Shown here: positions 18,415 to 40,594 of the stretch, piece after piece
Position numbering within the stretch: position 1 is the stretch's first letter
How the letters are laid out: the number at the start of each line of letters is the position of its first letter
NCBI RefSeq assembly: GCF_036347055.1
Contig: NZ_CP108882.1
Coordinates: 5,312,501 to 5,376,500, forward strand
Reading direction: 5' to 3'
Length of the DNA: 64,000 nucleotides
Origin: Streptomyces sp. NBC_00820
GTDB lineage: Bacteria; Actinomycetota; Actinomycetes; Streptomycetales; Streptomycetaceae
Made by a program: the position numbers and the translations under genes
The notes under the pieces: generated by a model
What the model saw: the letters and a program-made list of their open reading frames with translations, nothing else
What the model was told of the DNA's origin: nothing
The model's database searches: none

Positions 18415-20610
18415 GTGACAGCAGCAACGCACTCCTCCCTCTTCCCGCAGGCACCGGACACGGCCGACGCGGTGCTCGAAGGGCTCGACCCCGAGCAGCG
18501 CGAGGTGGCCACCGCCCTGCACGGGCCGGTGTGCGTGCTCGCCGGAGCCGGCACCGGCAAGACCCGCGCCATCACCCACCGCATCGCCTACGGGGTGCGC
18601 GCGGGCATCCTCCCGCCGTCCAGCGTGCTCGCCGTCACCTTCACCGCCCGCGCCGCCGGCGAGATGCGCGGCCGGCTCCGCCAGCTCGGCGCCCAGGGCG
18701 TGCAGGCCCGCACCTTCCACTCCGCGGCGCTGCGCCAGCTCCAGTACTTCTGGCCGAAAGCCATCGGTGGCGGTATGCCCCGCCTCGTCGACCGCAAGAT
18801 CCAGCTCGTCGCCGACGCCGCCGTGGCCTGCAAGCTCCGCCTCGACCGGGGCGAGCTGCGGGACGTCACCGCCGAGATCGAATGGTCCAAGGTCACCCAG
18901 ACGATCCCCGCCGACTACCCGTACGCGGCCGTCAAGGCCGGTCGGGAGACCCCGCGCGACCCGGCCGAGATCGCCCACGTCTACGCCGCCTACGAAGACC
19001 TCAAGCGCGACCGCGCGGTCATCGACTTCGAGGACGTCCTGCTGCTGACCGTCGCCGTCCTCCAGGACCGGCACGACATCGCCGAGCAGGTCCGCGCCCA
19101 GTACCAGCACTTCGTCGTCGACGAGTACCAGGACGTCAGCCCCCTCCAGCAGCGGCTGCTGGAGCTGTGGCTCGGCGAACGCGACACCCTGTGCGTCGTC
19201 GGTGACGCCAGCCAGACCATCTACTCCTTCACGGGCGCGACCCCCGATCACCTCCTCGACTTCCGCGCCCGCCATCCCGGCGCCACCGTCGTCAAACTCG
19301 TCCGCGACTACCGCTCCACCCCCCAGGTCGTCCGCCTCGCCAACGGCCTGCTCGCCCAGGCCACCGGCCGCGCCGCCGACCACCGCCTGGAACTGGTCTC
19401 GCAGCGCGCCGCGGGCCCCGAACCCCGCTACACCGAGTACACCGACGAGCCCGCCGAGGCCGAGGGCGCCGCCCGCCGCATCCGCGAGCTGATCGACGCC
19501 GGCACCCCGGCCGCCGAGATCGCCGTCCTGTTCCGCACGAACTCCCAGTCCGAGACCTACGAGCAGGCCCTCGCCGACGCCGGGGTCCCCTACCAGCTGC
19601 GCGGCGCCGAGCGCTTCTTCGACCGGCCCGAGGTGCGCAAGGCGGGCGTCGCCCTGCGCGGCGCGGCCCGCTTCGGCGGCAACGACTCCCTGCTGGACGA
19701 CGTCGTCGATCTGCCCTCGCAGGTCCGTGCCGTCCTGTCCGGAGAGGGCTGGACCAGCGAGCCGCCCGCCGGCTCCGGAGCCGTCCGCGAGCGCTGGGAG
19801 TCGCTGGCCGCCCTGGTCAACCTCGCCCACGACCTGGCGGCGGCCCGCCCCCAGGCCACCCTCGGCGACTTCGTCGCGGAACTCGACGAGCGGGCCGGTG
19901 CCCAGCACGCCCCGACCGTCCAGGGCGTCACCCTCGCCTCCCTGCACGCCGCCAAGGGCCTGGAGTGGGACGTCGTCTTCCTGGTCGGCATCGCGGAAGG
20001 CATGGTGCCGATCACGTACGCCAAGACGGACGAGCAGATCGAGGAGGAACGCCGCCTGCTCTACGTCGGCGTCACCCGCGCCAGAGAACGGCTGCACCTG
20101 TCCTGGTCGCTGTCCCGCTCGCCCGGCGGCCGGGCCAACCGCAGGCCCAGCCGCTTCCTCGACGGGCTCCGCCCCGGCTCGACCGCCACCGTCGGCCGCG
20201 CCGGAGCCGGTACCGGCGGGGGCGTCGAGCGCGGCGTCCCGGGTGACGTCCGGTCAGTGCCGCGGCGCACTCAGCGCGCCCCCGCCCGCTGCCGGGTGTG
20301 CGGTCGCACCCTCACCGACGCGGGCGAGATGAAGCTGATGCGCTGCGAGGGCTGCCCCTCCGACATGGACGAGGGCATCTACGAACGGCTGCGGGAGTGG
20401 CGGGCCGTCCAGGCCGGGCAGAGCGGGCAGCCCGACTTCTGCGTCTTCACCGACCGGACCCTCATGGCCATCGCCGAGACCCGGCCGGACAACGCGGCCG
20501 AACTGTCCCGCATCCCCGGCGTCCTCGCCCGTAAGCTGCAGCGTTATGGAGCCGACGTTCTGGCCATCTGCGCAGGTCAGGAAGTTCAGGGAGGGGACGG
20601 GCAAGACTGA
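18415..20610 (+). CDS. uvrD2: UvrD2: ATP-dependent DNA helicase with tetracysteine and HRDC domains
   Basis: 731 residues. SF1A helicase motifs: GAGTGKTRA, DEYQDVSPLQQ, GDASQTIYSFTGA, LHAAKGLEWDVV and YVGVTRARERL. The C-terminal part has a tetracysteine motif, CRVC...CEGC (about 626-647), then an HRDC domain (FCVFTDRTLMAIAETRP to the end). This order is diagnostic of actinobacterial UvrD2, which is essential in mycobacteria and unwinds 3'-tailed duplexes. The start is GTG at 18415; no better-placed start in frame was found, and the open frame upstream runs through the mrx1 promoter. It is the homologue of Rv3198c and directly precedes the wblC promoter. Confidence 0.92.
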   Translation: MTAATHSSLFPQAPDTADAVLEGLDPEQREVATALHGPVCVLAGAGTGKTRAITHRIAYGVRAGILPPSSVLAVTFTARAAGEMRGRLRQLGAQGVQARTFHSAALRQLQYFWPKAIGGGMPRLVDRKIQLVADAAVACKLRLDRGELRDVTAEIEWSKVTQTIPADYPYAAVKAGRETPRDPAEIAHVYAAYEDLKRDRAVIDFEDVLLLTVAVLQDRHDIAEQVRAQYQHFVVDEYQDVSPLQQRLLELWLGERDTLCVVGDASQTIYSFTGATPDHLLDFRARHPGATVVKLVRDYRSTPQVVRLANGLLAQATGRAADHRLELVSQRAAGPEPRYTEYTDEPAEAEGAARRIRELIDAGTPAAEIAVLFRTNSQSETYEQALADAGVPYQLRGAERFFDRPEVRKAGVALRGAARFGGNDSLLDDVVDLPSQVRAVLSGEGWTSEPPAGSGAVRERWESLAALVNLAHDLAAARPQATLGDFVAELDERAGAQHAPTVQGVTLASLHAAKGLEWDVVFLVGIAEGMVPITYAKTDEQIEEERRLLYVGVTRARERLHLSWSLSRSPGGRANRRPSRFLDGLRPGSTATVGRAGAGTGGGVERGVPGDVRSVPRRTQRAPARCRVCGRTLTDAGEMKLMRCEGCPSDMDEGIYERLREWRAVQAGQSGQPDFCVFTDRTLMAIAETRPDNAAELSRIPGVLARKLQRYGADVLAICAGQEVQGGDGQD

Positions 20611-20623
20611 TGCGAACTCGTCG

Positions 20624-20663
20624 AAAAAATAGTTTGCGCATGCCCCGGCAATCCCCATAGGTT
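20624..20663 (+). promoter_or_regulatory. wblC promoter, WhiB7/WblC-type
   Basis: An A/T tract (AAAAAAT, 20624-20630) lies three bases before a -35 element TTGCGC (20634-20639). After an 18-base spacer comes the -10 TAGGTT (20658-20663). An A/T block directly upstream of -35 is the known WhiB7 recognition feature, bound by the WblC AT-hook while WblC contacts the housekeeping sigma factor. This implies autoregulation. In a 72% GC background the tract stands out clearly. Confidence 0.8.
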
Positions 20664-20775
20664 CTAGGCACGGGAACGGCGGCCTTCTCCAAGGCCCTGC
20701 TTCCGTGTTGTACTTGCATATCCGAACGGACTGGTTCACCCCAGTCCCCCAAGACGCCGAGAGGAGGCGAGTCCA

Positions 20776-21102
20776 GTGATCAGCATCAACATCTGCACCA
20801 CCAGCACGGCCAAACTGACCGATCGCTCGACCGTCTCCCTGTGCATGCTCGGCGCCTCCCTGCAGGGCACCGGTCTGTCCGGCATTCGTGCCGACCGTCC
20901 GGCCTCCGCCCTGTCCCTCGCGGATCTTCCCGTCCGTGAGCGCAATGAGCGACCGACCAAGGCACTGGAAGCGGTAGAGGCACAGGCACACGCCTATGCC
21001 TTTGCGGCGGCCGGTGCCGGATTCCGGAAGCAGACGACGCAGCACCACCAGATGTGGGCCTTCCGTGGGCCAGACCCTGGAGTCATCCAGCCTGACAGTT
21101 GA
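20776..21102 (+). CDS. Upstream ORF in the wblC leader (108 codons)
   Basis: Starts with GTG, preceded by a strong GAGGAGG eight bases upstream, and ends 18 bases before an intrinsic terminator. The 108-residue product (ISINICTTSTAKLTDRS... ending WAFRGPDPGVIQPDS) has no recognised domain. Codon third positions favour G/C, more weakly than in neighbouring genes, so it is probably translated. Its position between the WblC-type promoter and the terminator suggests a role in translation-dependent attenuation: slowed ribosomes would change leader folding and let polymerase read into wblC. Control of this kind through an upstream ORF is reported for whiB7/wblC; the exact mechanism here is inferred. 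Confidence 0.7.
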   Translation: MISINICTTSTAKLTDRSTVSLCMLGASLQGTGLSGIRADRPASALSLADLPVRERNERPTKALEAVEAQAHAYAFAAAGAGFRKQTTQHHQMWAFRGPDPGVIQPDS

Positions 21103-21120
21103 TCAGGCCAGGCGCCTTCA

Positions 21121-21161
21121 GGGCCGCGGAACCCCATCCGGGATCCGCGGCCCTTTTGTTT
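21121..21161 (+). terminator. Intrinsic terminator/attenuator in the wblC leader
   Basis: A 10-bp perfect stem (21121-21130 with 21144-21153), extended by internal CCC/GGG pairing, is followed by TTTTGTTTG. It lies after the upstream ORF and 111 bases before the wblC start, so default transcripts would stop before wblC. Confidence 0.85.
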
Positions 21162-21271
21162 GTCCGCCACACGTGGACGACAGGACGAAGGGGCCTCGGG
21201 GCAAGGGAAGAACCCGGTACCAGCCGACACCCGGTCCACCGGCCGGAACGACCAGACGAGGAAAACACCCC

Positions 21272-21640
21272 GTGCAACTCGAAGCGCACGCCCCGTCCGT
21301 ACCGCCTTCGCAAACGATCCCCCCGCCCGGTCTCACGGAGGACCCCACCTTGACTCCCCTCACCGCGCTCACCGCGCTCGACGACGCCATCGAGAACCTC
21401 GGCGTACCCGTCCCCTGCCGTTCCTACGACCCGGAGGTCTTCTTCGCCGAGTCGCCGGCGGACGTCGAGTACGCCAAGGCCCTCTGCCGTACCTGCCCGC
21501 TGGTCGAGGCCTGCCTCGCCGGCGCCAAGGAGCGGCGTGAGCCCTGGGGCGTCTGGGGTGGCGAGCTGTTCGTCCAGGGTGTCGTCGTCGCCCGGAAGCG
21601 GCCGCGTGGCCGCCCGCGCAAGAACCCGGTCACGGCATGA
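21272..21640 (+). CDS. wblC: WblC (WhiB7-type) transcription factor
   Basis: 122 residues. Four cysteines (C49, C72, C75, C81; pattern C-x22-CxxC-x5-C) bind a [4Fe-4S] cluster. The GVWGG turn follows, then the C-terminal AT-hook RKRPRGRPRKNP, which separates WhiB7/WblC from other WhiB-like proteins. The factor binds the housekeeping sigma factor and switches on intrinsic antibiotic resistance genes. The start is GTG at 21272 with GAGG about 12 bases upstream. The long leader (about 600 bases from the inferred start site) contains an upstream ORF and a terminator. The gene overlaps the next start by ATGA, so the two should be co-translated. Confidence 0.95.
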   Translation: MQLEAHAPSVPPSQTIPPPGLTEDPTLTPLTALTALDDAIENLGVPVPCRSYDPEVFFAESPADVEYAKALCRTCPLVEACLAGAKERREPWGVWGGELFVQGVVVARKRPRGRPRKNPVTA

Positions 21641-21963
21641 ACACCTCAGGAACGATCGACCGCCCCCTCACGCACGACCCCAAGAAGCAGGCCCCGATGA
21701 AGCCGTCCACCAGCGAGCCCGCCGGCTCCGCGACTCAAGACATCAGCACCAGCGGCGCGACCGGTTCGCGTCAGAAGAACAGGACCCGAGAGATGCAACT
21801 CATCCCAGAAGCCCTGGCCCGTGCGCATATGCACGAGCGCCTGCATGACGCCGAGCGGGAGCGCCGGGCCGTGCGCCTGGCCACCGCCCGGCGGATGCAG
21901 CGCCGTGCGGAGCGCGCCTCGCTGCGCGCCCGCCGTGCGCTCGCCATGGCCGTCATGCAGTAA
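21637..21963 (+). CDS. Small basic protein translationally coupled to wblC
   Basis: 108 residues; the ATG overlaps the wblC stop (ATGA). The first half is polar and low-complexity (Thr/Ser/Pro). The second half is a very basic, Arg/Ala-rich helix-forming segment (ALARAHMHERLHDAERERRAVRLATARRMQRRAERAS...). No known domain was recognised. An internal ATG before KPSTSE or before QLIPEALA could give a shorter product. Coupling to wblC suggests it belongs to the same antibiotic-responsive transcript; a nucleic-acid or ribosome-binding role would fit the charge but is a guess. Confidence 0.7.
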   Translation: MNTSGTIDRPLTHDPKKQAPMKPSTSEPAGSATQDISTSGATGSRQKNRTREMQLIPEALARAHMHERLHDAERERRAVRLATARRMQRRAERASLRARRALAMAVMQ

Positions 21964-38362: not shown

Positions 38363-38436
38363 CGCGGGGTGGAGCAGCTCGGTAGCTCGCTGGGCTCATA
38401 ACCCAGAGGTCGCAGGTTCAAATCCTGTCCCCGCTA
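38363..38436 (+). tRNA. Initiator tRNA-fMet (CAT), copy 1
   Basis: 74 nt, anticodon CAT, no encoded CCA. The first base pair is mismatched (C1 opposite T72), and three consecutive G-C pairs (GGG/CCC) close the anticodon stem. Both are initiator hallmarks. Identical to the copy at 40521. Confidence 0.95.
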
Positions 38437-40520: not shown

Positions 40521-40594
40521 CGCGGGGTGGAGCAGCTCGGTAGCTCGCTGGGCTCATAACCCAGAGGTCGCAGGTTCAAATCCTGTCCCCGCTA
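40521..40594 (+). tRNA. Initiator tRNA-fMet (CAT), copy 2
   Basis: 74 nt, identical to copy 1 at 38363, with the same C1-T72 mismatch and GGG/CCC anticodon stem. It begins 68 bp after the Sel1 gene. The short flanks (CTACT after the gene) are also alike. Confidence 0.95.

Follow-up and report, generated by a model that had tools for sequence, protein, structure and literature searches.

The window, a stretch of 64,000 nucleotides from an 8.1-Mb Streptomyces chromosome, contains a regulatory leader flanked at one end by a UvrD/HRDC helicase gene that ends at 20610 and at the other by a WhiB-domain gene (Pfam accession PF02467, 53.5 bits). The latter gene, at 21272..21640 on the + strand, begins with GTG and encodes 122 amino acids. 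We take it to be wblC (whiB7), and the RGRPRK sequence present in the C-terminal part of its translation is presumably the AT-hook motif of WblC. The genome contains eight Whib matches in total, wblC among them, and the best match to the WblC query in each of 12 other Streptomyces genomes is 76-96% identical. In Streptomyces and mycobacteria, intrinsic resistance to antibiotics that target the ribosome is under the control of WblC/WhiB7.

All leader elements lie on the + strand. A promoter region at 20623..20663 consists of an A/T tract (20623-20630, with AAAAAT at 20625-20630, 3 nt from the -35 element), a -35 element TTGCGC (20634-20639) and, after an 18-nt spacer, a -10 element TAGGTT (20658-20663). 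About 110 nt of 5' leader precede a Shine-Dalgarno sequence, GAGGAGG (20761-20767), which serves an upstream ORF (uORF) of 108 codons (20776-21102) that starts with GTG at 20776 and stops with TGA at 21100-21102. An intrinsic terminator follows at 21120..21162, with 11-bp arms AGGGCCGCGGA (21120-21130) and TCCGCGGCCCT (21144-21154), a T-rich tail that reaches 21162 and a hairpin energy of -29.7 kcal/mol. Promoter, GAGGAGG, ORF and terminator hairpin had all been named in the original prediction, and each was found where it had been placed.

At the Rfam gathering score, the leader has no match, and the window yields just two tRNAs and a cobalamin riboswitch (RF00174, 63751-63888 on the - strand, 35.8 bits, above the gathering score of 31.5). 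The two tRNA genes (38363-38436 and 40521-40594, both on the + strand) have identical Rfam scores of 61.7 bits and are possibly duplicates. Downstream of wblC, an ORF of 108 amino acids at 21637-21963, which has no Pfam match, begins with an ATG that overlaps the wblC stop codon (ATGA) and may be translationally coupled to wblC.

The comparison covered 127 distinct Streptomyces leaders, the window's own among them, a set that was reached after dropping L096, L097 and three repeat copies. L096 and L097 come from genomes (G132 and G113, respectively) with WhiB matches at paralogue level only (E about 1e-10), and wblC may have been lost from these genomes or be absent from their assemblies. The uORF was recovered in 123 of the 127. 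Tblastn gave none for L088, L089, L092 and L095, though the same antiterminator/terminator sequence is present in the last three and a GGCCGCGG site was noted in L088. A further 137 leaders come from outside Streptomyces: 97 from other families of the class, drawn down the match list from 135 non-Streptomyces genomes of the class sample, and 40 from other genera of the family, drawn from 51 genomes of the family sample.

The promoter pattern is present in 121 of 123 Streptomyces leaders, and the spacer is 18 nt long in 120 of these 121. A WblC motif located 3 nt 5' of the -35 element is described in the available part of PMC7157823, and the promoter here has the features of a predicted WblC-type, autoregulated promoter.

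The uORF is similarly widespread. At E<=1e-3, 1,252 of 1,257 candidate proteins are homologous to its peptide, and 288 of 295 Streptomyces genomes, counting that of the window, contain a match to the peptide. The peptide belongs to no Pfam family, and the names given among the 120 of the 1,252 matches that were listed are hypothetical or uncharacterized protein. The original prediction's statement that the peptide has no known match is thus contradicted by its 1,252 homologues. Across the 123 Streptomyces leaders, the uORF is 88-127 codons long and its frame is conserved. Among 600 pairs of leaders that are at least 78% identical, the indel length is a multiple of three in 1338 of 1980 cases within the uORF, compared to 278 of 3742 outside it, and the frame is therefore under selection. 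The distance from stop codon to terminator is likewise confined; it measures 20 nt in the window and 24-30 nt in the other 122 Streptomyces leaders.

Similar arrangements extend beyond the genus. An uORF that ends before a terminator-like hairpin was found in 134 of the 137 non-Streptomyces leaders, with L214, L235 and L237 lacking an acceptable terminator or uORF. Hairpins in this set were identified by a second finder that replaced a first one (82/137), and most have a GGCCGCGG or GGCCACGG arm. These uORFs span 42-245 codons (median 98.5), which are upper estimates since the farthest start with a Shine-Dalgarno-like motif was taken. They end 17-43 nt (median 26) before the hairpin, a range limited by the search for stops, which covered the 60 nt ahead of the hairpin start and the 14 nt following it. 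Against this background, the suggestion that the window's uORF is unusually long finds no support. A covariance model built from 52 Streptomyces leaders (alignment A2) assigns the window 122 bits, with the next match in its genome at E 3.7. At E<=0.01, it matches 62 of the 97 loci from other families and has no match at 35. All 62 matches lie on the leader strand, over the independently found terminator.

We next consider what is conserved within the uORF. Over 7,026 pairs of 122 leaders, a sample that excludes the window (L009), the uORF has a dN/dS of 0.84 and wblC one of 0.25. By region, the ratio is 1.92 for codons 1-20, 1.26 for 21-36, 0.60 for 37-56, 0.75 for 57-67, 0.47 for 68-82, 2.14 for 83-92 and 0.40 for the last 16 codons. 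Silent divergence is low at both ends (pS 0.146 in codons 1-20 and 0.163 in the last 16, where pN is 0.070) compared with wblC (pS 0.294), and silent sites are therefore constrained there. Third codon positions are conserved to the same extent as first and second positions (mean major-base frequencies of 0.83, 0.81 and 0.82 for positions 1, 2 and 3).

Codon choice provides another view of this constraint. Mean GC3 is 0.76 in the uORFs and 0.90 in wblC, and A/T-ending rare codons are retained in the uORF. Arg59 is CGA in 122 of 122 Arg codons, while CGA accounts for 6 of 133 Arg codons (5%) in the two neighbouring genes. By the same comparison, Lys13 is AAA in 118/120 (11% of Lys in the neighbouring genes), Asp16 is GAT in 104/108 (5% of Asp), Tyr74 is TAT in 103/109 (8% of Tyr) and Glu100 is GAA in 107/107 (23%, with GAG making up 69 of 90 Glu codons). 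These fixed rare codons show selection at the level of nucleotides. Selection for rare codons per se was considered and rejected: Arg59 is never CGT, which is also uncommon, CGA being the only Arg codon used, and the other codon seen at Ala63, GCG, is a common one and covaries with its partner in the column pair 20964-21015.

The same data bear on the idea that the 108-residue ORF encodes an ordinary small protein that acts in trans. Such a protein would account for the 1,252 homologues, the good ribosome-binding site and the kept frame. A dN/dS of 0.84, the lack of a Pfam family, third positions as conserved as first and second ones and a length that varies from 88 to 127 codons in Streptomyces and from 42 to 245 elsewhere all argue against it, and we consider it extremely improbable. 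No match to a known protein family was found in Pfam. The best reading of these sequence comparisons is that the peptide is weakly constrained and largely dispensable or incidental. We propose that selection retains the RNA pairings, an open frame and a stop codon placed 20-30 nt ahead of the terminator; the last 16 codons, with their dN/dS of 0.40, may also be under selection for the peptide.

A block rich in His, Gln, Thr and Lys near the uORF end had been put forward as a possible stalling or amino-acid-sensing segment (KQTTQHHQMW). In the window, this block corresponds to an A/C-rich linker at 21025..21051 (codons 84-92) that encodes K/Q/T/H. Among relatives, its residues change faster than its silent sites (pN 0.361 and pS 0.198 for codons 83-92), and A or C occupies both first positions in 875 of 1107 block codons, as against 1292 of 6632 in the mid-uORF. 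The block thus keeps A/C-rich nucleotides and not residues, and it looks like an unstructured spacer; the stalling or sensing role is unsupported. A related alternative is an attenuator that senses amino acids through these codons. The block's richness in Q, H, T and K and the response of whiB7/wblC to amino-acid shortage, described in the available parts of PMC12121999 and PMC11550727, are in its favour. In the Streptomyces leaders the residues nevertheless interchange freely, none of them dominates (Q 269, H 229, T 224, K 134) and a run of one regulated amino acid is absent. We rejected the block as a sensor and regard such an attenuator as very improbable.

RNA structure was compared as well. 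The Streptomyces leaders share 27 conserved helices of at least 6 bp, which overlap as alternatives and do not represent a count within one fold; 30 column shuffles gave 0.37 on average and never more than 2. One is a 5' leader hairpin at 20669..20707, in which CACGGG (20669-20674) pairs with UCCGUG (20702-20707), with 27 two-sided cells and 56 of 738 cells broken. The uORF's GGAGGC (20763-20768), within the Shine-Dalgarno region, is complementary to GCCUUC at 21058-21063; 24 of 738 cells are broken, there is no two-sided change and the pairing might affect uORF initiation.

The leader also has a predicted antiterminator. In the minimum free energy fold, its 5' strands (21055..21082) are UGGG (21055-21058), UUCCGUGG (21061-21068) and CCCUGGAG (21075-21082), and its 3' strands (21116..21136) are CUUCAGGG (21116-21123), CCGCGGAA (21124-21131) and CCCA (21133-21136). 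An apical helix at 21090..21108 (GCCUGA at 21090-21095 with UCAGGC at 21103-21108) surrounds the stop codons; helix 3, which contains it, has 98.8% of cells paired and two-sided changes in 4 of 9 pairs. The 3' strands overlap the 5' arm of the terminator. In an alignment of 72 of the 123 Streptomyces leaders (A1), 98.4% of antiterminator cells are paired, as against at most 53.5% in slid controls. Two-sided changes occur in 5 of 28 pairs, compared to 1.8 in shuffles, a level reached in 0 of 500. Most pairs are invariant or change on one side, so that covariation rests on these 5 of 28, and the shuffles leave relatedness in.

Folding-energy comparisons point in the same direction. In all 121 Streptomyces leaders of this test, which leaves L123 and L151 aside, the segment is more stable than its shuffled versions, with a folding z below -2, and the same holds for 115 of 134 others. 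A single-helix shuffle test of low power reaches p<=0.05 in 56/121 leaders from Streptomyces and 47/134 from elsewhere. Two further analyses count against the antiterminator: RNAalifold on the segment predicts the terminator and local hairpins with the antiterminator absent, and mutual information, which is dominated by clade, has 7 of its top 60 column pairs canonical in more than 85% of leaders, no enrichment over the 12% among all pairs. Among 12 leaders with A/T-arm terminators, the antiterminator strand has plain T in 4, is mixed or other in 3 and lacks the motif in 5, which is consistent with three-way covariation of the terminator arms and the antiterminator strand, if thinly so. Sequence comparison shows the terminator and antiterminator to be mutually exclusive as predicted structures.

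A candidate helix inside the uORF, helix H, pairs GGCACUGG (20961-20968) with CCGGUGCC (21011-21018) across 20961..21018. Pairing in helix H extends to 91.8% of cells, as against no more than 51.9% in slid controls, and 17 cells are two-sided, compared to 3.8 in shuffles, though one slid control (-3) has 19. None of 500 shuffles equals its cell count or its covariation score. Two of the five measures do not clearly stand out, since 34 of the shuffles have as many pairs with a two-sided change and 284 have as many pair types. Helix H contains the top-ranked column pair, 20964-21015 (AT 112, GC 11), and RNAalifold predicts 5 of its 8 pairs; the final two pairs are disrupted in 22 and 18 of the 72 leaders, respectively. 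With controls that are mixed, we consider helix H likely. Another helix, 21013-21020 with 21108-21116, is conserved in position, but its covariation is no greater than in shuffles and we make no claim for it.

Taken as a whole, the leader is best explained as a uORF-controlled transcription attenuator of wblC, a reading to which we assign a probability of about 0.85. Conserved frame, stop spacing and a predicted antiterminator that competes with the terminator strongly support the complete attenuation device of the original prediction, which thus held for its elements and their joint function and failed on the lack of a known match and the His/Gln segment, with no support for an unusual length. 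The mechanism itself is already published for wblC/whiB7, and this leader is a case of a known kind. A switch in which a stalled ribosome leads to an antiterminator formed from overlapping uORF and terminator sequences is described in the available part of PMC10727445, the same uORF/terminator/antiterminator switch in that of PMC11550727 and ribosome-mediated attenuation of WblC in that of PMC12421871. The wblC/whiB7 attenuators of Streptomyces and mycobacteria (Lee, Lee and Roe 2022; Burian and Thompson 2018), as described in papers that cite these works, have the gene in common with the window and also the promoter, the uORF, a Rho-independent terminator and an antiterminator that draws on both uORF and terminator. 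The window correspondingly contains the gene, the promoter, an uORF with ribosome-binding site and conserved frame, the terminator and a predicted antiterminator that overlaps it.

The proposed sequence of events is as follows. RNA polymerase would initiate at the WblC-type promoter and transcribe the leader, and a ribosome would load at GAGGAGG/GTG and translate the 108-codon uORF. A ribosome close behind the polymerase would cover, or have just unwound, 21055-21095 as 21116-21136 emerges; with 21055-21095 occupied, the terminator at 21120-21154 would form and transcription would end. Failed initiation, or slowing at any one of roughly 88 initial codons out of the 108 under inhibitors or amino-acid shortage, would free 21055-21095 to pair with 21103-21136, giving an antiterminator that holds the terminator's 5' arm. 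Polymerase would then read into wblC, and WblC would activate its own promoter. Assuming 16 nt between the P-site codon and the 3' edge of the ribosome, the antiterminator 5' strands stay free for as long as the ribosome is within the first 88 of 108 codons. We infer that the folds form in cells, that the lag of the ribosome behind RNA polymerase is the signal, that delay is integrated over the length of the uORF and that helix H has a role as a further layer.

Comparisons with other systems, drawn from the available parts of the sources cited, highlight both parallels and differences. The ARE-ABCF attenuators are5sc and tiaA of S. coelicolor also combine an antibiotic-responsive uORF with a terminator/antiterminator switch, whereas their uORFs have 3 and 9 residues and stall at the start codon (PMC12421871), compared to 108 codons here. 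Amino-acid attenuators of Streptomyces lividans such as trpL and leuL likewise let ribosome position decide between terminator and antiterminator; unlike the wblC uORF, leader peptides of this species have 12-29 residues and many are enriched in the regulated amino acid (PMC8079986). The E. coli toiL uORF, which controls topAI-yjhQ and not a wblC gene, senses several antibiotic classes and resembles the wblC leader, by description and not by sequence, in that a single uORF reacts, by way of translation stress, to many inhibitors of the ribosome (PMC12121999, 2025). The same source states that stalling within the wblC uORF has not yet been tested. In a dasR mutant, the wblC-flanking genes SCO5189 and SCO5191 are up-regulated together with wblC, according to the available part of PMC4398421.

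An arrest peptide would provide a different route to the same switch, with the C terminus MWAFRG.EPW.DPA stalling the ribosome on a drug or amino acid and thereby freeing downstream RNA. In Streptomyces, 122 of the 123 uORFs end in EPW.DPA or something close to it, the C-terminal dN/dS is 0.40 with low pN and W-x-P-P ends recur across other families, all of which would fit. The same codons are nonetheless the antiterminator strands, and the codons of the common W-x-P-P-V end lie within the pairing strands of the inspected leaders outside Streptomyces. Glu100 is fixed as GAA despite the preference for GAG in the neighbouring genes, and some families have quite different C termini (SARDPLPD, PRRIPA, SVDRSFI). 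The uORF end is also frame-shifted in the window and shifted in two other leaders, as described below. We regard an arrest peptide as quite unlikely.

The window is the exception among the 123, its uORF ending in PDPGVIQPDS. A 1-nt deletion specific to this strain at 21073..21075 (GACCC compared to GAACCC in relatives) shifts codons 100-108 and falls in an unpaired stretch between two antiterminator helices. The window thus departs from the known wblC/whiB7 attenuator in having its last nine uORF codons frame-shifted while the RNA pairing is kept, a feature that is seen only by comparison with the other 122 Streptomyces uORFs and not from the window alone. Relative to L258, the closest displayed relative in this stretch, one A is lost, one A is gained after the apical helix and there are two substitutions, a G to C between two inner helices and a C to T that creates the TGA at 21100-21102. 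The ancestral stop would lie at 21093-21095, and the new stop is 7 nt 3' of it; in L258, the corresponding frame contains no stop as far as it was read, past the terminator.

This pattern could also stem from an error in sequencing or assembly, with a canonical true leader. The 20-base pattern that includes the deletion occurs in one of 392 Streptomyces genomes searched, the window's own, and its absence from all the others would fit an error, although a leader with the deletion plus other changes would escape the search. A contig search returned 17 matches, from which very near relatives may be excluded. None of the eight inspected (seven of them actinobacterial) is a wblC leader, which would again fit an error, and the other nine are not Actinomycetes by title. 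Set against this, four nearby differences from L258 occur together, one of which makes the new stop, and an identical protein comes from two contigs of unstated origin, the longest of 22,441 bases and hence not the 8.1-Mb chromosome. We thus consider an error unlikely.

A comparable shift is found in two leaders from one other genus of the same family. L319 and L321 read GPDPGIERT where L309 reads GPGPWKERT, with the shift at the spot of the window's deletion and the frame restored by ERT. This shift apparently arose independently of the window's. We read these natural frameshifts as evidence that the peptide end can be lost while the pairing and stop position are kept, as far as sequences can indicate. 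The window's antiterminator, at -40.3 kcal/mol, is the weakest of 121 Streptomyces leaders (strongest -52.5), and its z of -2.82 is the second weakest; the frame-shifted strain may thus have partly lost switching. The titles and abstract openings listed in the literature searches make no mention of the frameshift or of helix H, with Lee, Lee and Roe (2022) represented through citing papers.

These observations could be joined in a more ambitious reading, in which the entire leader of about 500 nt acts as one translated, structured RNA that measures the distance between ribosome and polymerase. Codons would be chosen for pairing, helix H would be a second layer and uORF length would integrate delay, such that slowing at about four fifths of the codons trips the gene. 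Such an element would be widespread in the class Actinomycetes and lack an Rfam family, and the window would separate peptide from RNA. We hold this reading tentatively and consider it possible but doubtful; the mixed controls for helix H and the rank of the window's antiterminator as weakest of 121 lowered its probability.

The natural frameshift offers a ready comparison of peptide and RNA, and an RNA family could be defined from the leader. Should selection bear on frame and RNA pairing and not on the peptide, as the comparison suggests, the wblC leader would sense many unrelated inhibitors broadly, without a drug-specific stall.
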